Shown here one piece after another: positions 14,587 through 33,724 of a stretch of 64,000 bases of DNA. The notes under the pieces were generated by a model, which saw only the letters and a program-made list of their open reading frames with translations, was not told the origin of the DNA and did not search any database. Positions within the stretch are counted from its first letter, which is position 1; every line of letters starts with the position of its first letter. A program made the translations under genes and the position numbers. The stretch spans positions 27,624,001 through 27,688,000 of the forward strand of contig NC_053415.1 in the NCBI RefSeq assembly GCF_016859285.1, in the 5' to 3' direction. The DNA comes from Xiphias gladius (Eukaryota > Chordata > Actinopteri > Istiophoriformes > Xiphiidae).

Positions 14587-14626
14587 TTTTATCAGATGGT
14601 GTCACCCTCCATGGATCTCATTAAAC
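14587..14626 (-). promoter_or_regulatory. Putative OR promoter module of gene A
   Basis: The minus strand reads GTTTAATGAGATCCATGGAG, then GGTGACACCATCTGATAAAA, exactly 40 bp. It has the same three parts as the modules before B, C, D and E: a homeodomain-like TTTAATGA, an O/E-EBF-like TCCATGGAGG and a TATA-like GATAAAA. It lies about 195 bp upstream of the ATG. Confidence 0.75.
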
Positions 14627-16130
14627 TTTTCACCTAAAGACACAACATGTGATCAACTTTGTCAAACTCTGGGGCATGTACCCCCCTAATGTTGTCTGTG
14701 CCTAAACAATTATGGTAACGCACTATGATTATATTCAGTGTTTATAGCTTTGGAAATTGACTACATTTCCTGCATGAATTGGTGCTGTTTCACACAAAGT
14801 TTGCATAGTAATTGATCCTTGTCACGTTTATGAAGGGAAAACACTGCACTTCAAGGACGAAAGGTAGTTCCAAATGGTAATACCAATCATTGGTAGACAC
14901 CATGATTTGCTTCTTTTGCGTCTCACCAGATGAATCGAAGGAATGGTTGATTTTCAGATAAGAGATGCACCGGATGAGACACCTCTTTATGACATTGCTT
15001 ATTGCATGCTTACAAGAGGACTCTCAAAAGGGTCGCTCCTAATGTTGGTGTTAGAAAAAGGCATTTGCTGAGGCTCCTGCCCTTGTAACTGAAGGAACAG
15101 TTTAAGACAATGCGATTCTTTGTGTTGTAGGACACCATGAGGACATCGACAGTGTGTGGAACTTTCATCGCATACCCCATTGTGATAAGCTTATTCGTTT
15201 TCCTTGGAGGGACATGTTTCTTTTCCACAGAAGGGCTGTGGCTCACCTATGGATGGACCTCTTTATCCTTATCCTTATCCTCAATGTGTTAATGCATGTC
15301 TCCGACCACATTCCCAGCATTTTGTGTTGGGCAGAATCCGAATTTTGACCTGTTCCTTTGAGAGACTCTTAAATACAAGGCAGGTTAACCTTCAGTCTGG
15401 CAAACTCGCGTGGATTCTCGGTTACAAAGTCAGGGATCATTAGTGTTGTACCATGAAACTTTGGCTCACAACTGGGTGGGGATGGAGAGCAATGCCACAC
15501 AGGGAAGGACATGGAGAAGCTCCATGATGAGCCTCTGTGTGGATTGCAGCTCAGTTTTTTTGTCTTTGATTGCTGTTGTCGCAGCCATTCTTCGAGAGGA
15601 GGCTTCAGGTGTAGGGTCGGAGAGTCAGGACCCAGACGGGCCCGGCTGCAGTGATTCAGCACTTGACCACGCACAGAAGTACAGTTTCACTCAGTGTGCT
15701 CTGTAGTCAGCTTCTTCATGGTTAGGATAAGGGTTCATCGATGATGGTCCTTAATGGGGGTCTACACGGTGGGCCAAATTGTGCACAGATTTATCATCCA
15801 CTTAAAACTAATGAAGCCAGTGATTGAAGCAAGAAAGACACTGAACAAAAACAGTTCCTTGTTAAAATCAATGTTCGTTAACGCTGTTTGGGGAGCAGCT
15901 GCTAGCCTAGCTTCCGCAAACATCTGCTTAGCTTGTTTCTTGGAAAACTTAAAAACCAGATGTCCAATGACTAAAAACCTTCATCCAATTAAGATATACA
16001 GTTAAAAAAAAAAAAACAGGGTTAAAGTGTGTCATAAAAATGCAGCTTAAATTAGCATAGAAGTAAATTTATGACAATATTTCAGGTGGGCACCTGCCCA
16101 CCTTGAAGGGTTGCAGAACAGATGATATGC
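14627..16130. other. Intergenic spacer between divergent OR genes A and B
   Basis: No intact gene recognised. There is a short CTTATC-type repeat at 15263-15282 and a run of A at 16005-16016. Open frames in the 15.1-15.7 kb stretch overlap on both strands and contain no recognised domain. Confidence 0.45.
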
Positions 16131-16290
16131 CAACTGGCCCCACTACCTGCTTACCACCTTAGAAGACGTCACTCCAAAACTGGTTGGAGCTCAATACTAC
16201 TACCTGACACACAGTTTATCCCTGTGCCCAGGCCTTTACCACTGCGTTCAGCAGGTACAACTCCCTCCGCCTTCCCTTCATGTATTCGGT
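16131..16290 (+). mobile_element. Ty3/gypsy retrotransposon remnant 1 (reverse transcriptase)
   Basis: The plus-strand translation includes LLTTLEDVTPKLVGAQY, the RT motif L-P-T-L-E-D-V with GA-x-x-F/Y. It is followed by a degraded GLYH-like stretch that also appears at 27665-27690 in remnant 3. It is a short, frameshifted fragment in the same orientation as OR gene B, 0.75 kb downstream. Confidence 0.65.
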
Positions 16291-16768
16291 TTTTGCAGAT
16301 ACTCTGGGAAATCAGAGTCAAATTGAGAGCGAAACAGTTGGATTGGTGCATCCCTAATATCTTCAAACACCTTAATCCCTGATGAGAGTGGCAACACTGT
16401 ATGCAATTGGATCACATTATAGAATTTCATCCAAAAAGGCACAGATGCACCTGGAGGAAGCTTATGCTCATACTTTTAAATCATGCTCATTAGTGACTGT
16501 GCGTCAAGTGGCACAAGTTTTTATTTCCATAGCAGTACATCCGTTACAACAAACAAGCATAAAAGCAATAAGGTAGAGTTGCAGTTGGTACAGAAAATAT
16601 CCACTTATTTCCATAGTGCTGAACTTTAATGTAAAATAGCTGTATAGTAGTTATATAATAGTATAACAGAGGCACACATCCAAGTAAAAGGGGTCAAACA
16701 GTTCTCTGACTTCAGGCCTCCAGGGTTTAATGAATGTCTTTACATATTAGAATCTAATTTAATGGAGG

Positions 16769-16808
16769 GTTTAATGAGATCCATGGAGGGTGAAGCAATC
16801 TAATAAAA
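16769..16808 (+). promoter_or_regulatory. Putative OR promoter module of gene B
   Basis: GTTTAATGAGATCCATGGAG followed by GGTGAAGCAATCTAATAAAA, 40 bp. It ends 228 bp before the ATG, the same distance as in C and D. A partial extra copy of the motif (GGGTTTAATGAATG, then TTTAATGGAGGG) lies just upstream at about 16726-16769. Confidence 0.75.
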
Positions 16809-17035
16809 ACTTTCCACAGACTGAATCAGTTCACTTTCTGGCTGTCGGAGATGAACGTACACCAAGTGCACTTTAAGGTCAGGCATCTGTGACTGAATAA
16901 GGCACTCCTGCACAGGTTGGATGTCAGTGGTATCGTGAAAGTGAAGCTCTTTTTAAATTTTCAGTAATGTATGCCGGCTATTTAATCTGCCTCTTATATT
17001 GTTGAAAATTTCAACACTCACAAAATTTCAAATTC

Positions 17036-17962
17036 ATGGATGACAAACTTAATGTAACAGATATAACTCTTGATGGGCACGTGGAAGTCTACAGATACAG
17101 ATATCTTTATTTTGTGATCATGTTTACAGTGTATATTCTAATTATCTGCAGTAATTCAACCATCATTTGCCTCGTCTGGATTCACCAAAACCTCCATGAG
17201 CCCATGTACGTTTTCATTGCAGCCTTGTCACTGAACTCTGTTGTTTTCAGCACTGCAATGTACCCAAAGTTGTTAATTGACTTTTTATCTGAAAAACAGA
17301 TCATTTCTTATTCCACCTGTCTCCTTCAATTTTTTTTATATTACTCTTTAGGCGGTTCTGAATTCCTATTGTTGGCAGCCATGGCCTATGACAGGTATGT
17401 GTCTATATGTAAACCTCTGCAATATCCGACTATCATGAGAAAAGCCACTGTGAGGGTTTTTCTGAGTTTAGCTTGGCTTGTTCCTGCTTGTCAGATTGCC
17501 GTTGTAGTAATAATGAGTGCCGATATGAAACTGTGTAATTTAACTTTAAAAGGAATTTTTTGTAACAATTCAATTTACAATCTCCACTGTGTGAGCTCGA
17601 GAGCACGATCTGTATTTGGTGTTGTTGCTTTGACAAACATTGCACTTTTCCCACTGCTCTTCATACTTTTTACATACACTAGGATACTTATAATATCTTA
17701 TCAAAGTTGTAAAAATGTAAGAAAAAAAGCTGCACAGACCTGTTTACCTCACCTGTTGGTTTTATTCAGCTTCTTCTGTTTGTGTGCGTACGATGTTATC
17801 ACAGTTCGACTGGGTTCTGATTTTCCAAAAACTGTACGTTTAATAATGACTTTACAGGCGGTTCTCTATCATCCACTCTTCAATCCAATTATATACGGAC
17901 TCAAAATGAAAGAAATCTCTAAACACCTGAAGAGGTTGTTCTGTCAAAGTAAAGTGATGTGA
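17036..17962 (+). CDS. Odorant receptor B, teleost-type one-exon GPCR
   Basis: 308 aa, intronless. The sequon is NVT at residues 6-8. TM1 is about 24-48 with Asn40, the LHEPMYVF motif is at 53-60, and TM2 about 60-82 has Ser68 where most ORs carry Asp2.50. Cys95 is the TM3 disulphide cysteine, and MAYDRYVSICKPLQYP covers 116-131. Trp147 lies in TM4, PLFNPIIYGLKMKEI in TM7/helix 8, and the tail is CQSKVM. It differs from its paralogs by ISYQSCKNVRKKAA in ICL3, where the others have SSREVRKKAA. The TM1 block (17090-17193) is identical to that of E. An AATAAA occurs at 18015-18020, about 50 bp after the stop, and may serve as the polyadenylation signal. Confidence 0.95.
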   Translation: MDDKLNVTDITLDGHVEVYRYRYLYFVIMFTVYILIICSNSTIICLVWIHQNLHEPMYVFIAALSLNSVVFSTAMYPKLLIDFLSEKQIISYSTCLLQFFLYYSLGGSEFLLLAAMAYDRYVSICKPLQYPTIMRKATVRVFLSLAWLVPACQIAVVVIMSADMKLCNLTLKGIFCNNSIYNLHCVSSRARSVFGVVALTNIALFPLLFILFTYTRILIISYQSCKNVRKKAAQTCLPHLLVLFSFFCLCAYDVITVRLGSDFPKTVRLIMTLQAVLYHPLFNPIIYGLKMKEISKHLKRLFCQSKVM

Positions 17963-18759
17963 TGTTTTAAAATGATGTTACAGGAATAGCAATGTTTTCT
18001 CTAATAATAATCATAATAAAACATTAACAATAATAATACTACAAGAGTGTAATGAAGGTATTTACTGTAAGCATTTGTTTCCATGGTGTAAAGAAGTTCA
18101 TTCCTATTTCTCACGGAAACAGTTCATTGTATCTTCAGTTTGATAGTTTCGTAGGTTTCAGTGCCTGTTAGGGTTCAGCACTTTAACTGTAATACTCTAA
18201 TCATCTCCTGGTCGCTTCTTATTTCTGCTACTGCCATGATACCACACACATACGAGCTGGTAGATTTTTATTTATTGTAAAAATAATACACATGTAGCGT
18301 CAACACTATTATCACTCTAAGTTGAGTAAAAACACTTCTTGATTTAGTAAGTTATCAGTTTTAAAGCTTTATTCTTTGGGAGCATAATGATGCACATTCT
18401 TTTACTTCTGGATTCATGCATATCATGCTCGTGTTCCCTGCACCCTCGTGGCCTGAAAGATGCACAAAACCTAATACTCGAAAAGTCGAAATACTCAAAA
18501 TGCTCAGTACATTTAGAGGTCCAGACCCGGGTATACCGGCGTAGAATAACAATTGAACCTCAGGGTACTAATCTGAATCAAACAATAGACATTGCAGTAT
18601 AGCATGTTCTTAACAACTAGCCACTAGAGCCACCTGGATGTCCCAGATTGATTGACGTGGAAACCATATCAGCTTTCTACACTGGCTGCGTGATAGCTTT
18701 AATCCTATTTTGAATCAGAGTGTCTGAATTGTTCCCAAGTCTCCTGTGCAACATCATCA
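17963..18759. other. 3' flank of OR gene B
   Basis: AT-rich DNA with a possible polyadenylation signal AATAAA at 18015-18020. No gene or OR remnant recognised. Confidence 0.4.
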
Positions 18760-19550
18760 TGAAGGAGTTTGCAGATGTTCTCCAGTGCAAAGGAAAATTC
18801 CCAGGATTCCCTGTTGTGTACCTGTGCATGACGCCATTTATGTTGCGAGATCGATCATAACAGGAACATGCATTTAAATGGGACGGAATTATTGCTAAAA
18901 AGCTTCACATTTGACGACTATGAGTGTGGTGAGACTGTTAGCGACCCACAGGATCCACGCAAAACAATTCAGAGGCCACACTATTTGCTTCCCACATTGG
19001 ATGATGTCACTCAGAAACTGCTTGGAGCCAAATAATTCAGATTCAGATACACAGTCAGGCCACTGAGCCGTCAGATGAAAACACAAAATGTTCCTGCTCA
19101 CCACCTTTACCACAGGACATCCCTTCAGGATAACGATGGCTACAGACGGATTCCAAAGGAAAATCACAGAGACATGCAGTATAAAGAACTCAGTGGCATG
19201 GTAGCCATAGTCAACGATATACTAGTTTATGGCAGAACCAAAGAGGAGCACGACACCAATCCTTGCACCATGTTGGCGTGCACAATCAATTGAGGTGTAT
19301 GCCTGAATCTGGAGAGAAGTGGGGTAGATGCAATGGAAGTCAGATTTTTTTGGGCACAAACTGACTTGAGACAGCATACAACCACACACAAAAGAAAATC
19401 CAAGCGATGAAGGGCATGACTCCACCAAAAAACAAAGGACACTCCTAGGACACCCCTAGGCATGGCAATTTACCTGGCTCGGTTTGCTCTGCATCTGTCG
19501 GAGGCCACAGACCACTACACCAGCTGCCCACCTCTAGCTTTGGAACTGAT
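18760..19550 (+). mobile_element. Ty3/gypsy retrotransposon remnant 2 (end of protease region through RT)
   Basis: In shifting plus-strand frames, in order: FADVLQCKGKFPGF (segment before RT), DPQDPRKTIQRP, LLPTLDDVTQKLLGA, the catalytic-box region VNDILVYGRTKEEHD (RT tower) and YLARFALHLSEATD (tether). The order is correct for a gypsy pol. Stops and frameshifts show it is dead. It lies downstream of OR B on the same strand. Confidence 0.8.
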
Positions 19551-19699
19551 AGGTGAAAAAAAGACTGTTTTCTCCACATCCACACCCACAACCGCCTTGC
19601 TGGGCCTGTTGTTGCTTCACCAATTGGCCAGACTGAGTCTGTGTCCACCTGCCATGACAAGGACAAGGGGTTGGTTTTGGGGAGGCAAGAGCAGCAAAT

Positions 19700-19983
19700 T
19701 TAACCAAAAGGGGCAAGATCAGGAATGACAGGATTAGAGAGATGGTGGGAACAACACCTATCCAGCATCACATAGATCGGCGAGAGGGTGGTGGTTTGGG
19801 CACATGGTGAGAATGTCTGCTGGCAAACCAGCTTCCTGGGCATGGAACCTCAATAACCCTGGGACTAGACCCAGAAACAGATTGAGGAAGCATTGGATGG
19901 ACAGGATCAAAGAAGCCCTACAGAACCACAACATGACCATCCTTGAAGCATGCACGCCACCTGGCAACAAAGAGGAAAAGTAA
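19700..19983 (+). mobile_element. LINE reverse transcriptase C-terminal fragment
   Basis: The plus strand reads KIRNDRIREM, then after a frameshift WWFGHMVRMSAGKPA, then RKHWMDRIKEALQNHNM and a stop at the end of KEEK. The pair RxxWFGHVxRM and GRPRxRWxDxIKEDL is the classic C-terminal signature of non-LTR retroelement RT proteins. It immediately follows the gypsy remnant, so this is a nested or adjacent insertion. Confidence 0.75.
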
Positions 19984-20224
19984 AGTATGTCAGTGCACAC
20001 TCAAATCACAGTTAGACCGTCTTTCATTTATATTAAAAGAGTAGCTGCATTTTAAAGTTCTTGATCTTTCCCCTGGTGGTGTACATGGAGTCTGCTGGCA
20101 AGCGTAGCAAAGGGTGTGTCTCCCTCTTCATCAGTGTCTGTAGCACCTCATGAAAACCTCGCCATTACTCCATTATCTTTGTAGTGCAACCAGGGTGGGT
20201 TAAAATTCAGTTACCTCAACATTC

Positions 20225-20770
20225 CATCGAACACGGTCTCCCAAGTGCTAGAACTCTCTCTTTCTCCTGTGCAAGATGCACCCTTGCAATTATCTTATGA
20301 GGTTTGGACGCTTCAGGTGGTTTGGGTACAGTGTGCCCTATCAATCACCACTAACCTGGGAAAGTTGTGGTTAACAATTCAGGGATCAGGTTGGAGGTTG
20401 GACAAATTTGGTTGGTCTTCCTTTCTCCTCATCTTCAGGGATGCCAAAAATCTTGAAGGTGTTCAGAGTGGATTGCCTGTCTGGGTCTGAGAGTTAAGCT
20501 ACAACTCGGCAAATGAAGTTTCCAGTGATTGAATTTGCTGCCTTTGATTTTCTGTGGTGGAAAGTGTCTCCGCAGGCTCTTGTTGGGTGGACACGAGACT
20601 CTGAAAACTCCATTCAAACTTTTCAAACTGTTCATGTGAAGACTGCAGGAGCTTGTTTGAGATTTTCTGTCAAATAAGTGAGTTCGTCCTCCTTTTTGGC
20701 TGAAGATGTGTCTGAAGTTTTCTTGCTAGCATGGTCTTGGCTAGTAGTAGCAATGGTTAACGGGCAGAAA
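20225..20770 (-). mobile_element. L1-type LINE ORF1 remnant, antisense to the OR genes
   Basis: The minus strand reads FKIFGIPEDEEKGRPTKFVQ, then after a frameshift NLIPELL and VVIDRAHCTQ. This corresponds to the ORF1p RRM/C-terminal features (NLRIxGIPE and IERAHR). An upstream Glu/Gln/Leu-rich stretch fits the ORF1 coiled coil. Stops and frameshifts make it non-functional. Its 5' side is cut by the inverted-repeat DNA element at 20779. Confidence 0.7.
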
Positions 20771-20778
20771 AACTCTCT

Positions 20779-22666
20779 GTAACGCTTTATATTAAGGTCT
20801 TTGTAATGCCTGTCAGTTAATAGGTAATAAGGACCTTATAAATCCTTATAAGATGCTTATTGAGATAGTTATGTGTTAATAGCAGCTGCCGGATCTAAAG
20901 CGAGAATAAATCCTTAATGCGTGAAAGTCCCACCAACGAAAAGGAGGCTGTCACTGCTGCTAGGTGGTTGCTGGGACACGGCCCCTGTAGACCTGACCAG
21001 GAAACCCCGCCAGCTCACTGAGTGGCACATGTCTCCGTTTGTTTCTTTCTTCCTTTTCCCCGCGGTGGATGGCGGGTGTTCACCACCGCGTTGCCGCGCG
21101 TGAATGTCTACCCGGTTGGGGAGTTACATATATACAAACATGTACTTCGTGTTTTATTTCAGCTGTTAACGGTGATTTTTTATTTTAAGTCAACTTTTTG
21201 ACGACTAAAACTCTGGACCTTTTAGTTTTGCCTTAGTCAAAGAAAAACAAACATTTTAGTCTAGTTTTAATCAAGACCGAGAATTAGCATTTTAGTTAAA
21301 CTTCAGCAAACTGAATTTTGAAAAGTCTGAAAATCTGGAAAGATGTAACATTAGCAAATCCATTGCAATCTAGCTCTTGCAATATGAGTCAAAAGGAGCC
21401 AGAAAAAAGAAAACCCTTCACAATAATAAAAAAAAAACTTGTACAACAGCCCTTCAATGAATCCTACCTTTATAAGGTTAAGTCTTGTCAGGACTGTGTC
21501 AGAGAGGTGTTGATATTACTCTGTAATTTTGTAGGCCGTAGTGGTAGCGTTGTACTAGATAATGTTATACAGGACGTGTTTATAACAGACCACATTAGCC
21601 ATCAGTGACATATGAATGGCCATTACGTTGTGTGTGCTCTAACATGGACGGCAGGTTCAATACACCACAACAAACAAACTTGTCTTAAGCTAAAAGTTGG
21701 CTAGCGTAGCTGACTGGGCTGCTGACTTTCAATAGGCTACTGCACACTGGTTTTTTTCTCTCAGCCGTGTTACCTTTGAAGTGGGTCCAAATCTCAACCC
21801 GTTTTGTTGGCGTCACATTCTTTTCCCTTTACCGCACGTTACCCGACATCCTTACAGCCGTAGCATTTCAATGCATTGCAAGGTCCAGTCTTGACCTAGT
21901 TCATGGGTGTGCTGGTGTGGTGGTGCGCTGCTGGTGTGCAGAATCTCCAGGAAGCTGATTTGAATGTGCGGGACGAGAAATGTGCAGCGCAGCCATTCAA
22001 AGAAGGACGTTTAGATCATGTCATTGTTTGAAAAATGCTCTATGTAAATTTGTCTCCTTTTTTTTACCTCAACAAAAATATAGAGAGATTTTGGTAAGGT
22101 TTTTATTTTCTAAACTACATTTTAGTCTGGTCTTTTTTTTTTGTCAGCAATATTACATGTTGATATAGTCACACGAGACCATGTGACATCATCGTCTCCT
22201 CTTAGTCATGGAAAAAAAGGTCTTTGGCAAACTTGTTTAGTCATAGTTTTCATTAATGAGAGTAACACTGGCTGAAAGAGACTTGTTGACATCCGCAAAA
22301 CAGCGGTTGCTATGCTTTGATAGATTAGAAATTATATCGATGTAACATTGATGTATTGATGCAACAAAAAAAAGCTCAGTAAAGGTTAAACAATGACATA
22401 ATAGGCAAGTTTGTTAAAGTCAGTAAATGTGTTTCTAATGCTAGTAGAAACAATTATAAGCAACTCATAGGGGCTTTTATTAATGACCTTAAGCACTCTG
22501 TGAATGGTTAACAAGTTCTGTATAAGTGCTTATGAATGATTTATAGTCTCACAATAAACGTGTTTATGATGCTACTATTAACACTTAGTCTTAATTAATA
22601 AGGATCCTATAGGATTGATAAGGGCCTTATTAACTAGAGCTTATTACGAGGACCTTAATATGAAGC
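20779..22666. mobile_element. Non-autonomous DNA transposon with terminal inverted repeats (1.9 kb)
   Basis: The left end GCTTTATATTAAGGTC and the inverse of the right end GCTTCATATTAAGGTC match at 15 of 16 positions. The similarity continues in degenerate form (GTTAATAGG / GTTAATAAGG, CTTATAAATCCTTATA / CTTATCAATCCTATAG, GTGTTAATAG in both). The direct repeat AACTCTCT flanks it at 20771-20778 and 22667-22674, an 8-bp target duplication as made by hAT-type elements. Inside, segments near 21170-21300 and 22190-22275 (GACTAAAACT..., TTTAGTCATAGTTTTCATTA) look like ends of a further nested element. No transposase is recognisable; the 96-codon frame at 21318 matches nothing I know. Confidence 0.75.
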
Positions 22667-22869
22667 AACTCTCTTTCTGCCTCGTGTACTTGTACCAGAC
22701 ATTCTTGTTTTCAACTCTCTGATGGTGTAAAAGGGAAAAACAAACAGCAGAGGTCTCTGAGCAACCGTAGAGAATCTGGCATTCGAAGTCAGAGTTTAAA
22801 ACTCATAAAAGTGGAAAAAAAACACACCTACACTGTGCTCATCTCACTGGTGACCCCCTCTTGTTGGGA

Positions 22870-22909
22870 GTTTAATGAGATCCTTGGAGGGTGAAGCAGT
22901 CTAATAAAA
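22870..22909 (+). promoter_or_regulatory. Putative OR promoter module of gene C
   Basis: GTTTAATGAGATCCTTGGAG followed by GGTGAAGCAGTCTAATAAAA, 40 bp, wait-free identical to module D. The end lies 228 bp before the ATG. It is followed by a second conserved 5' region (GAACGTACATCAAGTTCATT ... CTGTGAATGAATAA) also seen in B and D. Confidence 0.8.
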
Positions 22910-23136
22910 CCTCACCACCGACTCCGACTGTTCACTTCCTGGGTTTTGGAGATGAACGTACATCAAGTTCATTTCGAGGTCTGGTATCTGTGAATGAATA
23001 ACACGCTCCAGTACAGGTTACATGTTGGTGTAACTGTAAAAGTTAGACTTGTGTTTTGAATAATTCTGAACGTACAATGGTTATGTCCTGTAATCTGCCT
23101 GTTTTCTTACTGAATGTTTAGTTTTAGAAAGCATTC

Positions 23137-24063
23137 ATGGATGATGAGTTAAACGTTACTCACATAACTCTTAGCGGGTATGTGGAAGTTAACAAATACA
23201 GATATTTATATTTTTTGATTATGTTCACAGTCTATATCCTAATAATCTGCTGTAATTCTACTATTGTGTACCTCATCGTGATTCACAAAAACCTCCATGA
23301 GCCTATGTATGTTTTCATTGCAGCCTTGCTATTGAACTGTGTCTTTTACAGCACTACTATTTACCCAAAGCTTCTGATTGATTTTGTGGCTGAAAAACAG
23401 ATCATATCATATTCAGCCTGCATCTTCCAATATTTAATATATTATTCTATAGGCACTTCTGAATTCCTATTGTTGGCAGCCATGGCCTATGACAGGTATG
23501 TGTCTATATGTAAACCTCTGCAATATCCGACTATCATGAGAAAAGCCACTGTGAGTATTTGCCTGATTTTGTCTTGGCTTGTACCTGCTTGCCATATGGC
23601 GGTTCCTGCAATAGTGAGTGCTGAAGCTAAACTGTGTAACTTTACTCTAAAAGGAATATATTGCAACAATGCAATCTACGGACTTCAGTGTGTAAAATCA
23701 AGATTCATCACTATATATGGTGTGGTTGCTTTAGTAGATCTGGTAATACTCCCTACGCTCTTCATAATTTTTACTTACACAAGGATACTCATCATATCCT
23801 ATCGGAGCAGCAGAGAGGTCCGGAAAAAAGCTGCAGAGACCTGTTTACCTCACCTGCTGGTTTTAATCAGTATATTCTGTTTGTGTGCATATGATGTCAC
23901 TATAGCTCGAGTGGATTTCAACTTTCCAAAGATTGTGAGCTTTATAATGACACTGCAAATAATTCTGTATCATCCTCTCTTTAATCCAATCATATACGGG
24001 CTCAAAATGAAAGAAATTTCCAAACACCTCAAGAGGTTGTTCTGTCCAGCCAAAATGATCTGA
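23137..24063 (+). CDS. Odorant receptor C, teleost-type one-exon GPCR
   Basis: 308 aa, with the N-terminal sequon NVT at 6-8, CCNSTI in TM1, LHEPMYVF, and Cys68 at the usual Asp2.50 position. MAYDRYVSICKPLQYP ends TM3, and PLFNPIIYGLKMKEI is in TM7. The C-tail is CPAKMI. Residues 1-98 and 108-153 are identical to D, but 99-107 (YLIYYSIGT) differ at five positions from D (FFVFYSIGS). It has Glu instead of Gln in KKAAETC, and VDFNFPK in the third extracellular loop where D has LESNFPK. It forms with D a duplicated cassette that includes the promoter module and about 50 bp of 3' flank. Confidence 0.95.
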   Translation: MDDELNVTHITLSGYVEVNKYRYLYFLIMFTVYILIICCNSTIVYLIVIHKNLHEPMYVFIAALLLNCVFYSTTIYPKLLIDFVAEKQIISYSACIFQYLIYYSIGTSEFLLLAAMAYDRYVSICKPLQYPTIMRKATVSICLILSWLVPACHMAVPAIVSAEAKLCNFTLKGIYCNNAIYGLQCVKSRFITIYGVVALVDLVILPTLFIIFTYTRILIISYRSSREVRKKAAETCLPHLLVLISIFCLCAYDVTIARVDFNFPKIVSFIMTLQIILYHPLFNPIIYGLKMKEISKHLKRLFCPAKMI

Positions 24064-24117
24064 TGTATTATCACAGACTGCTCGTGTACAGCCTTTTCTA
24101 CTGCCACTGTTCGCTCT

Positions 24118-26325
24118 GCAGTTATTCAATCTTTTTATTCGACATTATCAAGTCTGACTTCTTCCTTGTGTTTTGCTTTACTGTCATTTCAAAAGCAAAA
24201 TTAAACCCTGTTTACAAGTGACAACATTCACATTAGTATCATTGGCTTCGGGTGTATCGTTATAAGTTTATATTAATTATTAGGTAAAAGATGTCAACGT
24301 TTAAATAGTGAACTTCAGTGATATAAATTATATTAATGCAGACGGCTAATGTGTCAAATCCTGACAACCTGAAAGTGTCTACACATCTGTGTTCAAGGGA
24401 TTGTTCCCTTTTCATTTTTTGTACTTTACAGACTTTAATGTACCAACATGTGTCCTTCAAACGAAGATTTTTTGAGTATCAATGATATTTACTGTTCCCT
24501 GTTTTTTGTCTTCGACTGCTGCACAAGCTGACTCCGGAGAAAATGATTGCTTTTCACTCCAAGCCGGTACTTGAAAGACCCTGTGTGCTTGGACGAACGG
24601 GAGAAGAAAGTTTTTGTGTGTGCGCGAGGGTGAATGTGTGTGTGGTGGTCGGTGCTCCAGCATCGGAGGTGATTTTCATGTCAGAGCTGGCAAATGGCAG
24701 CTTTGTCTGCAACAGAGCATTTAAGTTACGATTTGAAAAGTAAAAAGAAAATAATAATTATTCATAGACAGTCAACTATCATGGGCCCACCACAGCAGGA
24801 CACACACACACCGAACCAGCACTTTGAGGGAAACAGACTGAATCAGCCTGAGTCAGATTAATGTCGACGGAATAAAGCTTTCGTCAGTCATGGCACCCTG
24901 TGCTGTGGGAGGAGGGGGGATCGCTTCTGAAAGGCATTTACCACCTTTCCTCCCATTTGTTTGACCATATTTAACAAAATTAAGTTTAACATAACAGATT
25001 GCGTCATACAAAGGTGCATTGACCACAGAAGCTCACGTGGAAAATCCACACAACGAGCACAGGAAAAGCAAAAAGTCAGCAGCAATAAGAAATACGAGTA
25101 CAGACCACGGAACAAGCACTATCCTATTAAAAGAGAATAAATACTAGAAGTAAAGTAATGGGCAGCAGATTTGATCTCTACTAGAGTGGTCATGACTCTT
25201 GTTGCCCCTGTTTATTGGCATCACAACTTGAATTCACTCCCTTATGAAAAGAGAATCCTGGCAACATGAACTCAGATAACAATGGAGGTAGTGGAGAGAC
25301 ATGGCGTGAGAGATGCCAAGCCGGTCTATCTTACTTCATGCGAGGTTGAATAAAAGCGAGTCAGGAGTGTGGATGGTAACGTCACCCAGATGGCATGCAG
25401 GACTGTAGTTGGAGGTGGAGGCTGGGAGTTCAGAGGATCGCACGAAAGAAACAGAATGCCACGAGAAACATGGATTCTGGTGTAGTCCCTGAAGGGAGAC
25501 AGATACCCTGTGCAGAGGGTTTGGACGCGGAGGTCTGATGTCAGTGCTAAATGTTAAGGTGGTGATCATGTCTCGGCTTTTCACAGGCATTTGATTAGCA
25601 TATCCGGTACTCCCGTGGGCTTTTTGACAAAGGAGTGCAGCTGATGTAAACCCAGATGTTAGACATTTGTTGCGTTGAGAACAGAGTGGAAGGAAACAGT
25701 GTGTGAGGCTGTGTGAGGTGTAGAATGCTTTGAAACAATATGAGGGTCGGGTCCAGAGGGATGAAAGACAATTTGGGATTTAGGAATGAGGGGAATCGAA
25801 GGGGGCTGGATGAAATGGGGCTGAGCAAGAAGGAATGAACAGATGGTTGAATGCAAAGTCATGAACCAGGCATGGTAGGGCTGGTGGGGCATTTGAACTG
25901 TAGTAGACCGGCAACTCATTCATTCACAGCCTACTACCTAAGAATAAGATGGAGCACTTCAGGTGCCCATTTATGCTGACTGCAAATCAAAGTGTACAAG
26001 AATTGTGAAAACAGCAAAAGCCATCCTTTGTTCTACCTAAATAAGGCCTGAGCAGCTGCACTGCGAGATTCATTACTTCCGCGTCCCGCTGTCCTCCCAA
26101 GATGAACAGCAGAGTCAGTCGTTTCAACAATGCCACGTAACGACATGTGTTTATGTTCAAGTGACTAATGAGTAAGGCAGGAAAGTAGGAAATCAGGTGC
26201 CATTATTTTAGATCCACAAAGTTCATTTGGAGAGGAGGTCAGCGTGGATGAATGGGTCAACAAAACAACAGAACAGAAAGACTTTAACACGGGGAATTGC
26301 TGTTCATCTCCTGTTTCCAACTGTG
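24118..26325. other. Spacer downstream of OR gene C
   Basis: No gene recognised. An imperfect G/T-rich stretch lies near 24615-24650. The 25.1-25.9 kb part is a purine-rich plus strand with open frames only on the opposite strand, without recognised domains. Confidence 0.4.
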
Positions 26326-26329
26326 AGGC

Positions 26330-27055
26330 TTCAGTCAGGCCACTCTGCCATAAAGCCATATCGGTGGAGTGCTGCAGTGATTGTCATCCTTCTGGAAGCT
26401 TCTTCCTTCTCCACACAGGACCACTGGAGCTCAGCCAGAAAGACCATCAGGTTCTTGGTCACCTCTCTTACCAAGGCCCTTCTCCCCTGAAGGCTCAGCT
26501 TAGCTGGGTGGCAGCTCTAAGTAGAGTCCTGGTTGTTCCAGACTTCTTCCACTGAAGAATTATGGAGACCACTGTTCTCCTGGGAACCTTCGATGCAGCA
26601 GAAATTTTTTTGTAGCCTTCTCCAGATCTATGTCTCTGAGCTCTGCAGGCAGTTCCTCCGACCTCAGATATTCATTGCCAGCTGTGAGATCTTATGTAGA
26701 CAGGTGTGTGCCTTTCCAAATCACGTCCAATCAGTTGAATTTACTACAGGTGAAGTCCAGTCAAGAAGTAGAAACATCTCAAAGATGAGGAATGGGAGGC
26801 AACTGAGCTAAATTTGGAGTGTCATAGCAAATGGTCTGAATACTTATGTCAATGTGATATTTCACTTTTTCACTTTTAATAAATTTGCCAAAAATCATAA
26901 AATTCAGTTTTTGTTTTGTCCTTATGGGCTATTGAGTTTAGATTGAAGAGGGAAACAATGAATTTAAATGATTTCAGCATGAGGCTGCAACATAACAAAA
27001 TATGAAAAAAGTGAAGGGGTCTGGATACTTTATGAACGCACCGTACAAATGTGAT
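26330..27055 (-). mobile_element. Tc1-like DNA transposon remnant, 5' end of element
   Basis: Plus-strand sequence matches the antisense of a fish Tc1/mariner transposon as remembered: GGTGGAGTGCTGCAG, GTTCTTGGTCACCTCTCTTA, AGAGTCCTGGTTGTTCCAGA, TAGACAGGTGTGTGCCTTTC. It then runs AATACTTATGTCAATGTGAT into the terminal repeat GTGAAGGGGTCTGGATACTT at 27014-27033. Only the N-terminal transposase part (minus strand) and one end remain. Confidence 0.85.
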
Positions 27056-27439
27056 ACTGGACTATACTGTCTGCACAGGAATCATGAAGAGAGACGAGGT
27101 CGGGTGGGTGGGTTGGTATGCAACAAACAACTATGGGATCGGAATATCTGTTGATATTATATGGTATGTATCTTAACAACTACATCACCACAACCACCAG
27201 GGCGTCACAGATTGACTGCCATATTAACCGCAGCAGTGTATTACACTGTACACAGAGTGACTGTATTTTCCCAGAGCCTACTGGTTTTCCATTGTACACA
27301 GTTGTGTGAGATTTGTCAAGTACATCTGAGTGCACAGCTGTTGTATGGCTGAAGAGATGTAGTGCAGACACTACGTGTTGTGAGAGCAGCAGCTCCTTCC
27401 GTACACAACCTAACTCAAGCTAGTCCTGTCTGTAGATAG

Positions 27440-28938
27440 GCATTATCAGCAAAGTGACAGAGCCAACTGGCAGCCGCTGAAAAGCTTCACACTGGAAGAC
27501 TATTAGTGTGATGAGACTGTTAGTGACCCACAGGTTCCATACAAGGGAATTAAAGGCCACAGCACTTGCATTCCACATTGGATGTAGCACTCTGTAACTG
27601 GCTGGAGCCCAGAACTTCAGAGTCATGGATGCAGAGTTGGGCTACTTGGCCCCCAACTCGTTCCGGCCTTTACCACGGTGTATAGCAGATACGACTCCCC
27701 TCGCCTTCCCTTCGGGACAAGACATGCTCCAAAGGAAAATGGCGGACACATATTAAGAACTCAGTGCCATAGTATCCATAATGGACGATTTAGTGGCTAA
27801 TGGCAGAACCAAAGGGGGGCCACCGATCGCACCATGATGGAGTTCACAAGGACCCTGCTAGGTTTGCTCTACATCTGTCTGAGGCCAACGTACTACTACA
27901 CCAGCTGCTCATACAAGACTTCGAGTTCACTTGAGATAGATGTCATAACACAGCAAATGACAGAGCTCATCACCAGAGACCTATGATCCATACTCTGCTA
28001 CTACAAAAAGTGGTTTAAGAGCATTTGTGCTGCTAGAGTCCATGTACATCTGCTCCTAAACTAATATGTATACCAGCTGCGTATGCTTCAAGGTTGCGGA
28101 CACCGATAGATCGGCGGGCAAATTATTATGGGCAGATCAAAGAGAAGCTTTTCACTGTCTATTGAGCTGTAAAAGTTTCCTCGCTCACATGTACAGAAGG
28201 AAAGAAACAGCTGAGTCAGTCCACAACCCAACTCCCACAGCTCCAGCATGCCTGCAACAAGTGAGTCTGCAGCTGCAGTGATATGGCATTGAGATCCGGC
28301 ACTGCCCATGGAAGGCAACCCTGTAGCAGACACACCTCACAGGCAGCCTAACTGATGATGACTAACTGAGTGAAGGTATGGATGGGCAGGTCCATGCTGT
28401 CTTAAGCAGCTTGCCCGTGAGCAACAGAGGGTTTGTTGAGATGAAGACAGAAAATACAGAGGAGCTGCAACTAACCATGCTAAAGCAGACAGTCCTGTCA
28501 GGATAGCATAACGAAAGGAGGAAATGCCCTCCCACCCTCCTAGACCACCAGAACTTTAGAGACAAAATCACAGTGAGATGACAAACTGCTAAATGGAGAG
28601 AAAATCATAGTACCATCCACTTTGAAAGATAACATGTTGGAGCACAACCACAGAGGATACATGGGTATTTAAAAGGAGCAAGCCAAAGGTGAGGATGTCC
28701 TCTTCTGGCCTGGCACGGATAACGATAGCACCCCTGCTGTGGAAAATGGCTCCATATGCCAGGAACAACATGCCTCAAATCTCACCTCTCATCAGAAACC
28801 AAACAGACCATGGCAGACCCTCGAACTGTTCTCACGGAAGGTAGAGGGCTACTTAGTTGTTGTTGACTACTATAGCGGATATTTTTGGTTGAAAGATTGC
28901 ATAATGGGGCACATGGTCAACAAAGAGGTATTTCGGTG
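27440..28938 (+). mobile_element. Ty3/gypsy retrotransposon remnant 3 (RT, RNase H, integrase)
   Basis: The longest gypsy piece. In order on the plus strand: a degraded RT start (CTGTTAGTGACCCACAG, shared with remnant 2), RLPFGTR (RT palm), LARFALHLSEAN (tether), EAFHCLLSCKSFLAHMYRRK (RNase H region), IEIRHCP, VADT, LTDDD, then ICQEQHASN and RPWQTLELFSRKVEGYLVVV followed by DYYSGYF (integrase core). Stops and frameshifts are frequent. Similarity ends abruptly at about 28938, exactly where the duplicated OR cassette D begins. Confidence 0.8.
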
Positions 28939-28942
28939 GGGA

Positions 28943-28982
28943 GTTTAATGAGATCCTTGGAGGGTGAAGCAGTCTAATAAAA
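28943..28982 (+). promoter_or_regulatory. Putative OR promoter module of gene D
   Basis: Identical to the module of C (GTTTAATGAGATCCTTGGAG then GGTGAAGCAGTCTAATAAAA). It ends 228 bp before the ATG and starts four bases inside the duplicated cassette, immediately after the gypsy integrase fragment. Confidence 0.8.
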
Positions 28983-29209
28983 CCTCACCACCGACTCCGA
29001 CTGTTCACTTCCTGGGTTTTGGAGATGAACGTACATCAAGTTCATTTCGAGGTCTGGTATCTGTGAATGAATAACACGCTCCAGTAAAGGTTACATGTTG
29101 GTGTAACTGTAAAAGTTAGACTTGTGTTTTGAATAATTCTAAACGTACAATGGTTATGTCCTGTAATCTGCCTGTTTTCTTACTGAATGTTTAGTTTTAG
29201 AAAACATTC

Positions 29210-30136
29210 ATGGATGATGAGTTAAACGTTACTCACATAACTCTTAGCGGGTATGTGGAAGTTAACAAATACAGATATTTATATTTTTTGATTATGTTCA
29301 CAGTCTATATCCTAATAATCTGCTGTAATTCTACTATTGTGTACCTCATCGTGATTCACAAAAACCTCCATGAGCCTATGTATGTTTTCATTGCAGCCTT
29401 GCTATTGAACTGTGTCTTTTACAGCACTACTATTTACCCAAAGCTTCTGATTGATTTTGTGGCTGAAAAACAGATCATATCATATTCAGCCTGCATCTTC
29501 CAATTTTTTGTATTTTACTCTATAGGCAGTTCTGAATTCCTATTGTTGGCAGCCATGGCCTATGACAGGTATGTGTCTATATGTAAACCTCTGCAATATC
29601 CGACTATCATGAGAAAAGCCACTGTGAGTATTTGCCTGATTTTGTCTTGGCTTGTACCTGCTTGCCATATTGCAGTTCCTGCAATAGTGAGTGCTGAAGC
29701 TAAACTGTGTAACTTTACTCTAAAAGGAATATTTTGCAACAATGCAATCTACGGACTTCAGTGTGTAAAATCAAGATTCATCACTATATATGGTGTGGTT
29801 GCTTTAGTAGATCTGGCAATACTCCCTATGCTCTTCATAATTTTTACTTACACAAGGATACTCATCATATCCTATCGGAGCAGTAGAGAAGTCAGGAAAA
29901 AAGCTGCGCAGACCTGTTTACCTCACCTGCTGGTTTTAATCAGTTTCTCTTGTTTGTGTGCATATGATATCACTATAGTTCGATTGGAATCCAACTTTCC
30001 AAAAATTATTAGCTTTATAATGACACTGCAAATAATTTTGTATCATCCTTTGTTTAATCCAGTCATATACGGGCTCAAAATGAGAGAAATTTCCAAACAC
30101 CTCAAGAGGTTGTTCTGTCCAGCCAAAATGATCTGA
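29210..30136 (+). CDS. Odorant receptor D, teleost-type one-exon GPCR
   Basis: 308 aa and the closest relative of C. It has the sequon NVT at 6-8, LHEPMYVF, MAYDRYVSICKPLQYP, ISYRSSREVRKKAAQTC before TM6, PLFNPVIYGLKMREI in TM7/helix 8 and the tail CPAKMI. It differs from C mainly at residues 99-107 of TM3 (FFVFYSIGS) and in TM6/third extracellular loop. From the TM5 end to TM6, the DNA is almost identical to E (SSREVRKKAAQTC block). No features suggest inactivity. It sits between a gypsy remnant and an OR pseudogene. Confidence 0.95.
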   Translation: MDDELNVTHITLSGYVEVNKYRYLYFLIMFTVYILIICCNSTIVYLIVIHKNLHEPMYVFIAALLLNCVFYSTTIYPKLLIDFVAEKQIISYSACIFQFFVFYSIGSSEFLLLAAMAYDRYVSICKPLQYPTIMRKATVSICLILSWLVPACHIAVPAIVSAEAKLCNFTLKGIFCNNAIYGLQCVKSRFITIYGVVALVDLAILPMLFIIFTYTRILIISYRSSREVRKKAAQTCLPHLLVLISFSCLCAYDITIVRLESNFPKIISFIMTLQIILYHPLFNPVIYGLKMREISKHLKRLFCPAKMI

Positions 30137-30190
30137 TATATTAACACAGACTGCTCGTGTACAGCCTTTTCTACTGCTACTGTTCGCTAT

Positions 30191-30535
30191 GAAAACAGTA
30201 AAGAGTACGTAGAAGTGGATAAATATGGATATGTTTATTTTTTTATTATCTTTACAGTATGTGTTCTAATAAGCTGCAGTAATTATATAATTGTGTTTCT
30301 AATCTGGATTCACCGAAACCTCCGAGAGCCTTTGTACATTTTTATTGCAGCTTTGTCACTGAACTCTGTTCTTTTGAGCACTGCAGTTTACCCAGAGCTT
30401 CTGGTTAATGTTTTATCTCAAAAACAGATTATATCATATTCAGCCTGTTTATTTCAGTGGTGTCAATATTACTCTTTAAATGGATCAGAGTTCTTGCTGT
30501 GTCTGTCAACTCCTATGACCGGTATATAGTTCAGA
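30191..30535 (+). pseudogene. OR pseudogene F, truncated at both ends
   Basis: In frame from 30191: EYVEVDKYGYVYFFIIFTV (TM1 region), IHRNLREPLYIFIAALSLNS, YPELLVNVLSQKQIISYSAC (start of TM3), then SEFLL. A frameshift near 30497 follows: the expected Ala-Tyr-Asp-Arg-Tyr is read in another frame as SYDRYI. A stop comes at 30527-30529, after which OR similarity ends. The start codon and promoter module are missing because the 3' edge of cassette D joins here. It has diverged further from the others (LREPLY for LHEPMY), so it is an older copy. Confidence 0.9.
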
Positions 30536-30849
30536 GTCGATTTGTTGACATTCTTCGCGTTCCACGTCTTATCGAATACGCATGTGCGGCTCGTTCAGTA
30601 GCTTTGTGGCTGCACTTGAACATGACAGCCCTTTGTGCCTCTAACTCTCTGGGTCATCACTCATTTTAAATGTTACGTAGTCGATCTCACGGCACAGCTG
30701 CTGTCATCAACCTGGAGTTTGGTTCAGTTTGTCAGACGATGTAGTGATAGCAGAATAATGATTTGATCTGCAGGACACCACCTGGGTAATGACTGCTGGT
30801 TAACACAGTTGCCTATTCTATGAGCAGTGATCAGAATTCAATTTCTTAG

Positions 30850-32165
30850 TTTTGCCTCCGTACACCACCACAGTGGATTTGAAACGAAACTATGAGGATG
30901 TGATTGAAGTGTAGACTTTCAGCTTTAATTCAAGGGGTTTAACAAAAATGTCACATTAACCGTTTAGGAGTTACAGCAGTTTTTATACATTGTCCCTCAT
31001 TTTCAGATGCTCAAAAATAATTGGAGAGTTGACTGACAGTCAGTGACATGTTCAGGTGTGGCCTGTTCCCTCGTCATTTCATGACAAATGAAGGAGATAA
31101 AAGGTCTGGAGTTGATTCCAAGTGTTGAACTTGCATGTGGTAGCTGTTTTTGGGAACTCTCAGTATGTAGGAGGCCGTCATTAGGCTGACAAATCTAACC
31201 TAATAGACAAATGGCAGAAACTTTAGCAGTGGCCAAATCAACAATTTGGTACATTCTTAAAAAGAAGGAATGCACTGGTGAGCTCAGCAACACCAAAAGG
31301 CCTGGAAGACCTCGGAAGACAACTGATGTGGATGATCACAGGATTCTTTCTTTGGTGAAGAAAAACCCCTTCACAACATCCAGCCAGGTCAAGAACTCTT
31401 TGGAGGAGGCAGGCGTATCATTGGTAAAGTCTACAACCAAGAGACTTCATGGATATGAATACACAGAGTTTAGAACAAGCTTCAAACCACTGGTAACACT
31501 CAATAACAGAAAGGCCAGATTAGACTAAAACAGCCTGCCCAGTTCTGGAACAAGATTCTTTGGAGATTAACTTGAACCAGAATGATGGGAAGAGAAAAGT
31601 TTGGAAAGACAGAAATGGCTCATGATCTAAAGCAATATAACTATAAAGAGTCCAGTCTGGACCTGCTCAACATGAAAAGTGCCCTGAGATTAACCTCTGT
31701 TATGATTTGGTTGCTATATAAATAAAACCGAATTGAATTGAATTGAATATCACATCATCTCTCAAACATGGTGGAGGCAGTGTTATGGCATAGACATGTG
31801 TGGCTGCCAATGGAACTGGGTCACTGGTGTTTATTGAGGATGTGACTGATGATAGAATCAACAGGATGAATTCTAAAGCATATAGTTTTAAACTGTCTGC
31901 TCAGGTTCAGCAAAATGCTCAAAACTGATGGGATGGAGCTTCACAGTACGGATGGATAATGACCCAAAACATACTGAGAAAGCAACCCAAGAACATCTCA
32001 AGGCAAAGAACTGGAATATTCTTCAATGGCCAAGTCAGTCACCTGACCTCAGCCCAACAGAGCATGTTTTTTCACTTCCTGAAGCCAAAACTGAGGGCAA
32101 ATAGACCCACAAACAAGCAGCAAATGAAGGCGGCTGCAGTAAAGGCCGGACAAAGCATCTCAATT
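30850..32165 (+). mobile_element. Tc1-like DNA transposon, inactivated
   Basis: The left end has CGTACACCACCACAGTGGAT then CTTTCAGCTTTAATTCAAGG, as in fish Tc1 elements. The transposase fragment from 31211 includes KSTIWYILKKKECTGELSNT and KRPGRPRKTT (HTH and GRPR linker), SLVKKNPFTTSSQVKNSLEE and NRKARLD. After an insertion at about 31628-31748, the DDE half follows: CATGGTGGAGGCAGTGTTAT, GACCCAAAACATACTGAGAA, and CAGTCACCTGACCTCAGCCC (the SPDLSP motif). The frame is broken and the right terminal repeat is not recognised. Confidence 0.85.
31628..31748 (+). repeat. Short interspersed insertion inside the Tc1 element
   Basis: It includes GTGCCCTGAGATTAACCTCT, TTGGTTGCTATATAAATAAA and a terminal (TTGAA)n-type tail, AATTGAATTGAATTGAAT. 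I remember this as a frequent teleost retroposon tail. It interrupts the transposase between the NRKARLD block and the DDE block. Confidence 0.65.
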
Positions 32166-32508
32166 TTTTGAGATGCTTTGCTGATTTTTTTCTGTGCGTT
32201 AATGGTGCAGGCTGCGCTCCCATGTTTTGTGTGGGAAAGGGGCTCAGTGGCTTAAAAGACCCCCTACTAAGGTTGGGTAATGCAAACGTTTTACTCTGTT
32301 GGAGAACTAGGGTTGTGGAAGCCCTTCATGCATTTTGAGAGGGGGCGAAAATGGAATGTAATATTATCCCTGGCATGTTCAAGGGACTCAATGCAGCTTT
32401 GGGACCTTTACACGTGAAGTACTCACCCATTCCCCCCGTTGGTGCTCATGTGTACTGGCCTCCAGAGTTTGATGAAGTTGTTGGCATGTTAGTAGCTCTT
32501 GGTGGAGA

Positions 32509-32548
32509 GTTTAATGAAATCCACGGAGGGTGACGCGGTCCGATAAAA
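32509..32548 (+). promoter_or_regulatory. Putative OR promoter module of gene E
   Basis: GTTTAATGAAATCCACGGAG followed by GGTGACGCGGTCCGATAAAA, 40 bp. It is the most diverged copy, yet it keeps length, TTTAATGA, TCCNNGGAGGGTGA and the final GATAAAA. It ends about 189 bp before the ATG. Confidence 0.75.
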
Positions 32549-32736: not shown

Positions 32737-33663
32737 ATGGACGATGAATTAAATGCAACATTTATAACCCTTGACGGCTATGTGGAGTTGTACAGATACA
32801 GATATCTTTATTTTGTGATCATGTTTACAGTGTATATTCTAATTATCTGCAGTAATTCAACCATCATTTGCCTCGTCTGGATTCACCAAAACCTTCATGA
32901 GCCTATGTACGTTTTCATTGCAGCTTTGTTACTGAACTCTGTTCTTTTCAGCACGGCAATGTACCCAAAGTTGTTAATTGACTTTTTATCTGAAAAACAG
33001 ATCATTTCTTATTCCACCTGTCTCTTTCAGTTTCAAATATTTTACTCTTTAGGCGGTTCAGAGTTCCTATTGTTGGCAGCCATGGCCTATGACAGGTATG
33101 TGTCTATATGTAAACCTCTGCAATATCCAACTATCATGAGAAAAGCCGCTGTGAGGGTTTTCCTGGTTTTAGCCTGGCTCCTGCCAGCGTGTCAGGTTGC
33201 AGTACCAGCTGTAATGAGTGCTAATAAAAAGCTGTGCAGCTTTACTTTGAAAGCAATTTTCTGTAACAACACAGTTTACAAACTGCAATGTGTTGTCTCA
33301 AATACACAAATTATACATGATTTGGTCATTTTGCTAAATGTTGCACTCCTGCCTGTGCTTTTCATACTTTTTACTTACACAAGGATACTCATCATATCCT
33401 ATCGGAGCAGTAGAGAAGTCAGGAAAAAAGCTGCACAGACCTGTTTACCTCACCTGCTGGTTTTAATCAACTTCTCCTGTTTGTGTGCATATGATGTTAT
33501 CACAGTTCAGCTGGAATCAGATTTTCCAAAAACTGTACGTTTAATAATGACTTTACAAATAGTAACGTATCATCCTCTCTTTAATCCAATAATGTACGGA
33601 CTAAAAATGAAAGAAATCTCTAAACACCTCAAGAGGTTGTTCTGTCCAGCCAAAAGTATCTGA
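32737..33663 (+). CDS. Odorant receptor E, teleost-type one-exon GPCR
   Basis: 308 aa from the ATG that matches the MDDELN start of C and D; an in-frame ATG four codons upstream (32725, MTII) is possible but less likely. The sequon is NAT at 6-8. It has CSNSTI, LHEPMYVF, MAYDRYVSICKPLQYP, ISYRSSREVRKKAAQTC, and PLFNPIMYGLKMKEI with Met instead of Ile. The C-tail is CPAKSI. It is a mosaic: TM1 identical in DNA to B, TM2-TM4 closest to A (QFQIFYSLGG, LAWLLPACQVAVPAV), ICL3 almost identical to D. Its extracellular loop 2/TM5 entry (VVSNTQIIHDL) is unique. Confidence 0.95.
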   Translation: MDDELNATFITLDGYVELYRYRYLYFVIMFTVYILIICSNSTIICLVWIHQNLHEPMYVFIAALLLNSVLFSTAMYPKLLIDFLSEKQIISYSTCLFQFQIFYSLGGSEFLLLAAMAYDRYVSICKPLQYPTIMRKAAVRVFLVLAWLLPACQVAVPAVMSANKKLCSFTLKAIFCNNTVYKLQCVVSNTQIIHDLVILLNVALLPVLFILFTYTRILIISYRSSREVRKKAAQTCLPHLLVLINFSCLCAYDVITVQLESDFPKTVRLIMTLQIVTYHPLFNPIMYGLKMKEISKHLKRLFCPAKSI

Positions 33664-33724
33664 TGTATTAACACTAAAACAAATGTACAGACATCTTTTC
33701 TGTAACGTAATAATGGGAACTCTG

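Follow-up and report, generated by a model that had tools for sequence, protein, structure and literature searches.

The stretch of DNA analysed here, called the window, is a 64,000-nucleotide segment of the swordfish Xiphias gladius (G000:C16:27624001-27688000, within a 690.8-Mb assembly of 690,834,319 bases) that carries five intact odorant receptor (OR) genes, O1 to O5. Each of them is preceded by a 40-base-pair (bp) block of constant layout, which is the subject of this work. The genes and their blocks are the following.

13472..14392, minus strand: O1, intact odorant receptor, 306 amino acids, Pfam 7tm_4
17036..17962, plus strand: O2, intact odorant receptor, 308 amino acids, Pfam 7tm_4
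23137..24063, plus strand: O3, intact odorant receptor, 308 amino acids, Pfam 7tm_4
29210..30136, plus strand: O4, intact odorant receptor, 308 amino acids, Pfam 7tm_4
32737..33663, plus strand: O5, intact odorant receptor, 308 amino acids counted from the conserved ATG, Pfam 7tm_4
14587..14626, minus strand: block of O1; core 14602-14626, TAATGA 14618-14623, EBF-like ATCCATGGAG 14607-14616, GATAAAA 14587-14593
16769..16808, plus strand: block of O2; core 16769-16793, TAATGA 16772-16777, ATCCATGGAG 16779-16788, AATAAAA 16802-16808
22870..22909, plus strand: block of O3; core 22870-22894, TAATGA 22873-22878, ATCCTTGGAG 22880-22889, AATAAAA 22903-22909
28943..28982, plus strand: block of O4, a near-duplicate of the O3 block; core 28943-28967, TAATGA 28946-28951, ATCCTTGGAG 28953-28962, AATAAAA 28976-28982
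32509..32548, plus strand: block of O5; core 32509-32533, TAATGA 32512-32517, ATCCACGGAG 32519-32528, GATAAAA 32542-32548

The initial annotation had placed five modules of the same layout at these positions, and all were confirmed, strands included; each is 40 bp long, with no insertion or deletion. The block consists of GTTTAATGA, RA, TCCNNGGAGGGTGA, 8 bp and RATAAAA. The parts and the fixed length had thus been correctly recognized, whereas the RA between the first two parts had been omitted, and the stretch before RATAAAA, described as varying from 8 to 10 bp, is 8 bp in all five. The centre dinucleotides of the TCC-NN-GGA palindrome are AT, AT, TT, TT and AC from O1 to O5; the first four are as previously given, and the fifth had been read as CG. 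The distance from block to ATG is 234 bp in O1, 267 bp in O2, O3 and O4, and 228 bp in O5.

The block is confined to these genes. Searching the whole genome for the 25-bp core with up to two mismatches gave five hits, none of them outside the window (reversed-pattern control, 0), and each copy sits 228-267 bp ahead of the ATG of one of the intact subfamily members. The pattern is therefore found upstream of every intact OR of the subfamily, as had been claimed, and is not equally common away from OR genes. Within the window, no further copy of the core exists at up to six substitutions, and TAATKR with CC-NN-GG at the spacing of the block occurs only at the five blocks. A shorter, 19-bp pattern gave six exact genomic matches, the five blocks and one on C15; the core-like site at C15:2487398 has no RATAAAA in the flank inspected and was rejected as a further module. 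Four bacterial loci matched the block pattern, which we attribute to chance, and viral contigs yielded neither a match to it nor a confirmed OR relative. In the literature on OR promoter motifs, part of it on fish, no title or abstract opening that we found describes the block.

The five genes themselves stand apart in the genome. A protein search with O4 found, among the 60 matches listed, five intact subfamily genes, O4 itself and others at 94, 78, 76 and 75% (74-94% identity between O4 and the other four by BLASTP); outside the subfamily, the same matches comprise a local pseudogene at 58%, a stop-bearing C7 fragment at 39% and the next intact gene at 37%. Judged by the published 60% and 40% rules, as they appear in the available part of PMC1325023, O1 to O5 form a single subfamily with no close relatives in this genome.

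Because O3 and O4 are near-duplicates, the five blocks are not five independent witnesses. These two genes are 96.7% identical over 22863-24118 and 28936-30191 (about 1.26 kb, starting 7 bp ahead of the block and ending about 55 bp past the stop) and have unrelated flanks; O4 was hence dropped and conservation was counted over four lineages, O1, O2, O3 and O5, whose pairwise synonymous divergence (dS) is 0.33-0.74, with a non-synonymous to synonymous ratio (dN/dS) of 0.21-0.32. Invariant columns number 22 of 25 in the core and 31 of 40 in the whole block, compared with 8 of 73 upstream, 53 of 234 in the leader that separates the block from the ATG and 163 of 309 at third codon positions. No other non-coding stretch of 25 columns in the alignment is as conserved as the core; the conservation of the core was reached in none of 100,000 column permutations, and its binomial probability is 2e-4 at the third-position rate and 7e-12 at the leader rate. 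The block is real, constrained and subfamily-specific, with a constraint well above that of silent sites and of the leader, and the proposal of a constrained element that defines the subfamily is borne out by these counts.

Its first recognizable part is TAATGA, a homeodomain site of TAATKR type present in all five blocks. Mouse OR enhancers, in the available text of PMC5638857, PMC7804114 and PMC8213819, contain TAATKR homeodomain sites, O/E-like YYYCARRRR sites and an extended homeodomain site AACTTTTTAATGA, and a 21-bp enhancer repeat, ACATAACTTTTTAATGAGTCT, includes TTTAATGAG (PMC7804114, PMC8213819). The resemblance to homeodomain sites put forward initially is strengthened by this comparison: TTTAATGA, the 3′ part of the mouse extended site, is exact in the five blocks and TTTAATGAG in four, a likeness that extends to the 21-bp homeodomain repeat of the H, P and J elements and the P3 promoter in the accessible portions of the same two reports (PMC7804114, PMC8213819). 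Unlike the mouse extended site, the fish blocks have AAG, GAG or GGG before TTT. A homeodomain site in the block is likely on the strength of these matches.

For the palindrome, blocks were scored against the decamer TCCCNNGGGA, which we take to be the EBF consensus. In the mouse Lhx2-Ebf composite, the two sites are 1 bp apart and are summarized, in the part of PMC11643329 available to us, by the fuzznuc pattern WWAHDRRBHHHHNDRDD; we parsed it as TAATKR, 1 bp and TCCCNNGGGA, a division which is ours and not that of the paper. The block then reads TAATGA-R-ATCC-NN-GGAG and, provided that the palindrome is the Ebf half, TAATGA-R-ATCCNNGGAG has the order and 1-bp spacing of the mouse composite in five of five blocks (PMC11643329) and so fits a published pattern, as does the homeodomain site. 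Variation in the core is limited to three columns, the spacer base that separates TAATGA from the palindrome and the palindrome's two centre bases, all at positions expected to be free in TAATKR + 1 bp + TCCCNNGGGA; this is one of C(25,3) = 2300 placements, noticed post hoc. Compared with YYYCARRRR (pattern from the excerpted PMC5638857), the palindrome agrees at 9 of 9 positions in O3 and O4, 8 of 9 in O1 and O2 and 7 of 9 in O5, and Ebf halves within mouse composites tolerate other pyrimidines and purines according to the text at hand of PMC5608512. The same TAATKR-type site, single base pair and TCC-NN-GGA palindrome recall the Lhx2-Ebf composite of the mouse Greek Islands (PMC5608512, PMC11643329), which, in what these two sources make available, is enriched at intergenic enhancers, OR promoters being depleted of it; the fish blocks, in contrast, are promoter-proximal in five of five. 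An EBF half of the block is possible on these grounds; the O/E (EBF) resemblance first suggested is supported only in part, the half-sites agreeing in no more than the inner CC-NN-GG, though the 1-bp spacing from TAATGA is that of the mouse composite.

The third part, RATAAAA, is present in all five blocks and invariant apart from R. Initiators follow the consensus YYANWYY, and this motif lies at +31 from the R of RATAAAA in O2, O3 and O4, which represent two lineages; O2 has a second one at +26. Transposing the 31-bp offset to all genes gives the predicted starts below.

16833, plus strand: predicted start of O2, at TCACTTT, initiator-like, 31 bp past the R of RATAAAA
22934, plus strand: predicted start of O3, from the 31-bp offset
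29007, plus strand: predicted start of O4, from the 31-bp offset
14562, minus strand: predicted start of O1, from the 31-bp offset; CA only
32573, plus strand: predicted start of O5, from the 31-bp offset; no A

RATAAAA is plausible as a TATA-like element. In the available part of PMC3247239, a TATA box is called between -60 and -10 in 39% of 314 mouse OR promoters, and mouse OR promoters are enriched near the start for homeodomain, O/E and TATA sites. The block, with its homeodomain site, O/E-like palindrome and TATA-like element near the expected OR start, resembles these proximal promoters but differs in being compact, fixed at 40 bp and subfamily-wide; the predicted distance from start to ATG is also about 170-200 bp in the fish, against an average of 4.2 kb over the 314 mouse starts (PMC3247239).

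We therefore consider the block to be probably the proximal core promoter of this five-gene OR subfamily, made of a homeodomain site, a possible weak EBF site and a TATA-like element. An olfactory-neuron homeodomain protein of the Lhx2/Emx2 type would bind TTTAATGA. The palindrome ATCC-NN-GGAG(GGTGA), one base on, would be occupied by a second factor, the likeliest candidate being an EBF (O/E) dimer for which it is a weak site. The TATA element would be RATAAAA, with transcription beginning about 31 bp later and producing a leader of roughly 170-200 nucleotides. The block would in this way drive expression of the subfamily and might set which cells express it. It would be ordinary in kind. We also entertain, as a speculation that is on the unlikely side, that the 1-bp homeodomain-EBF composite, in mouse the mark of distant OR enhancers, lies directly upstream of TATA in every promoter of the subfamily; each gene would then have a composite site of its own, and the choice of the subfamily might depend less on a shared enhancer hub. 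Which promoter sequences permit the choice of one receptor gene per olfactory neuron is still an open question, on which we found little for fish, and a short, sharply bounded block, subfamily-wide and unique in the genome, is an easy target for reporter assays and mutagenesis; if the homeodomain and EBF halves are confirmed, mammalian enhancer grammar would be acting at fish promoters.

Several findings, given here and in the paragraphs on other OR loci and on gene conversion, weigh against this reading. The palindrome agrees with TCCCNNGGGA only in the inner CC-NN-GG (4 of 8 informative bases), its outer half-site bases being TCC/GGA and not CCC/GGG. The EBF match is weak, with four mismatches between block and idealised 17-mer, and a score of four or better is reached at 83 of about 128,000 window positions, the five blocks included. 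The published 17-bp pattern is matched at 16 of 17 positions in all five blocks in the TAATKR register, one position being missed, and in a shifted register at 17 of 17 in O1-O4 and 15 of 17 in O5, two being missed; it is so degenerate that it matches in 5.1% of 9137 sampled 40-bp windows. The TCC/GGA half-sites and the base missed in the TAATKR register set the blocks apart from the Greek-Island composite, as far as the available text of PMC11643329 defines it. The invariant GGTGA after the palindrome is unaccounted for by EBF. Finally, no YYANWYY occurs 25-35 bp after R in O1 or O5, and the TATA-like role first proposed for RATAAAA has an initiator-like match at +31 in O2, O3 and O4 only.

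An alternative is a core promoter whose second factor is not EBF, the palindrome being incidental: a POU protein on TAATGARAT, which we take to be an Oct-1/POU element, and possibly a zinc-finger protein of the CACCC/GGGTG type on GGAGGGTGA. The conserved string TAATGARATCC, with its variable R, equals the presumed POU consensus, EBF agreement is confined to the inner CC-NN-GG, and the invariant GTT before TAAT as well as the GGTGA after the palindrome extend beyond the idealised Lhx2-Ebf site; (A/G)GGAGGGA also lies upstream in four of five aligned ORs at 26.9 Mb on C7, though GGAGGG is not enriched over 41 ORs. On the other hand, both centre bases of the palindrome vary while its flanks are fixed, as a dimer site with a free centre predicts, and the spacing is that of the composite as published in the part of PMC11643329 at our disposal. 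We regard this second factor as having a modest chance, well short of even.

How far the homeodomain-EBF arrangement extends was examined over 52 OR upstream regions, 47 of them outside the window and 41 after near-duplicates were dropped. They derive from a genomic search with 7tm_4 (99 matches listed), from which we set aside partial or stop-bearing genes, eight low-scoring genes between 0.88 and 0.93 Mb on C17, and the remaining weak matches. TAATKR-NNN-CCNNGG was found within 1 kb of the ATG at none of the 47 outside loci, and the best scores of the idealised composite within 600 bp of the ATG of the 41 ORs do not differ clearly from shuffles at five spacings (three mismatches or fewer at 1-bp spacing in 7 of 41, 3.5 expected). 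A general fish OR promoter motif was accordingly rejected, and an extension of the module to fish ORs at large is not supported. Outside the window, the TCCNNGGA version at the spacing of the block is in weak excess, 13 against 5-10 at eight other spacings. With near-duplicates kept (136.9 kb of OR loci), the idealised composite at three mismatches or fewer had 38 matches against 16 in the reversed control; once six near-duplicate loci were dropped (116.5 kb), 1-bp spacing gave 25, ten other spacings 18-24 and the opposite homeodomain orientation 28, so that composite-specific enrichment is lost. An excess of the published pattern at -400 to -200 is largely the microsatellite of one locus, L054. 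A k-mer search across the 41 other ORs yielded no convincing common motif. Among the nearest outside relatives, the C7 ORs at 26.87-26.99 Mb (L035, L039, L044, L048) have (A/G)GGAGGGA upstream of the ATG in four of five aligned, which recalls the GGAGGG of the block; across the 41 ORs counted, GGAGGG shows no enrichment.

Clustered paralogues may also be alike without function, through descent or through gene conversion among tandem duplicates. Within the stretch that they share, O3 and O4 differ at 4 of the first 569 positions (99% identity) and at 37 of the remaining 687 (about 95%), which suggests local gene conversion. O1 is a mosaic (13472-14392 compared with 23137-24063 and 32737-33663), 94% identical to O3/O4 over codons 1-68 and closest to O5 (88%) in the rest; judged by this mosaicism, gene conversion does occur in the cluster. 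The leader, however, has diverged: 53 of its 234 columns are invariant, and it contains indels, so that in O1, O2 and O5 the block is not linked to the coding region by any recent tract; O3/O4 excepted, gene conversion does not appear to have recently joined the two. The lineages are moreover separated by dS of up to 0.74. A small internal control is provided by a GTTTRATGA-like copy upstream of the block, in which TAATGA is kept only in O2 and changed in O1 and O5 while their blocks are intact.

16725..16733, plus strand: second upstream copy of GTTTAATGA, 44 bp before the O2 block
32467-32475, plus strand: changed counterpart of this copy, GTTTGATGA, 42 bp before the O5 block
14659-14667, minus strand: changed counterpart of this copy, GTTTGACAA, 41 bp before the O1 block

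No such copy exists within 60 bp of the block in O3/O4. Likeness without function is, given these comparisons, improbable.

The block might also derive from a dispersed repeat, a piece of which the subfamily's ancestor would have acquired. The pattern TTTAATGA-N2-4-CCCNNGGG has 50 matches in the genome against 6 for the reversed control; 13 of the 50 are one identical string and, among 24 other N2 matches, 16 of the 20 whose flanks were fetched have common flanking bases beyond the pattern. The excess is therefore mainly a dispersed repeat, and genome-wide enrichment of the composite grammar was rejected. Copies such as C9:14390499 (L069) contain ATGAAACTTTAATGATCCCCATGGGGAAATT, similar to the core in its TTTAATGA and CC-NN-GG, and a profile of the repeat scores O1 at 3.6 bits when the best score in the reversed window is 2.8. 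The search pattern itself accounts for part of this likeness, however, and the profile gives O1, O2 and O5 only 3.6, 0.5 and 0.8 bits (expectation values (E) 3, 29 and 23), does not list O3/O4 and ranks two other places of the window above the blocks. Next to the common part, the blocks agree at 2-3 of the 7 preceding bases and at 1 of the 7 following ones, whereas 16 of 20 repeat candidates reach 5 of 7 or more on one side; when the 340 bp of O4 block and leader served as query, only O4, O3 and O2 matched. Since the profile scores are not significant and the repeat flanks are not shared by the blocks, the block is not taken as a repeat fragment, an origin that we judge very improbable; nor was the fragment of a repeat family envisaged at the outset found, the genome holding five core copies with flanks common to the paralogues only.

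The repeat itself, TTTAATGATCCCC-NN-GGG with shared flanks, is spread over the genome (e.g. L059-L066, L068-L071, L074, L075); its likeness to a homeodomain-EBF composite would mislead motif scans of the swordfish genome. Two ORs lie at C16:7.008-7.014 Mb, and about 5.6 kb upstream of the nearer one is C16:7020059, one of the 21 exact genomic TAATKR-N-TCCCNNGGGA sites (reversed control 13). With CTTTAATGAGAGCCCATGGGA, about 100 bp away, it makes a pair of homeodomain-EBF-like composites spanning G000:C16:7019957-7020075 (L058:1458-1576). This pair might be the fish equivalent of an OR enhancer; its second site, CTTTAATGAGAGCCCATGGGA, scores 6.6 bits with the repeat profile (E 0.017 in 3 kb) and may be a remnant of the dispersed repeat.

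A role in RNA or translation, whether as a 5′ untranslated element or as the last part of a small upstream frame (TTT AAT GAR ATC CNN GGA GGG TGA), can be envisaged as the frame is open, ends in a stop, is silent at two of the three variable positions and, in O5, stays open across all 50 upstream codons looked at. Upstream stops nevertheless break it in O1, O2 and O4, and in O3 it is open but unrelated; the TATA-like element is moreover downstream of the frame and not upstream. We give this role a very slim chance, and a coding origin of the block was rejected on the stops of these three genes.

Two broken OR copies accompany the intact genes.

30182..30525, plus strand: 5′-truncated OR pseudogene, from about codon 7-15; starts 46 bp past the O4 stop, near the end of the O3/O4 homology (30191); block absent
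33717..33877, plus strand: OR remnant with codons 67-96 and about 274-307 only; starts at codon 67; block absent

Their lack of the module, reported initially, is true, but it was offered as a functional argument: both lack the block because they are 5′-truncated, and its absence is therefore uninformative on function. The two start no more than about 60 bp from the stop codons of O4 and O5, respectively, both intact genes; it looks as though two unequal exchanges had each terminated slightly downstream of a stop.

Elsewhere in the window, 44603-44720 is a tandem array with a 32-bp unit, 3.7 copies and 93% matches. Two pairs of inverted copies, 9880-10075 with 38085-38281 (89% identity) and 62-317 with 10072-10323 (81%), are perhaps transposon remnants.

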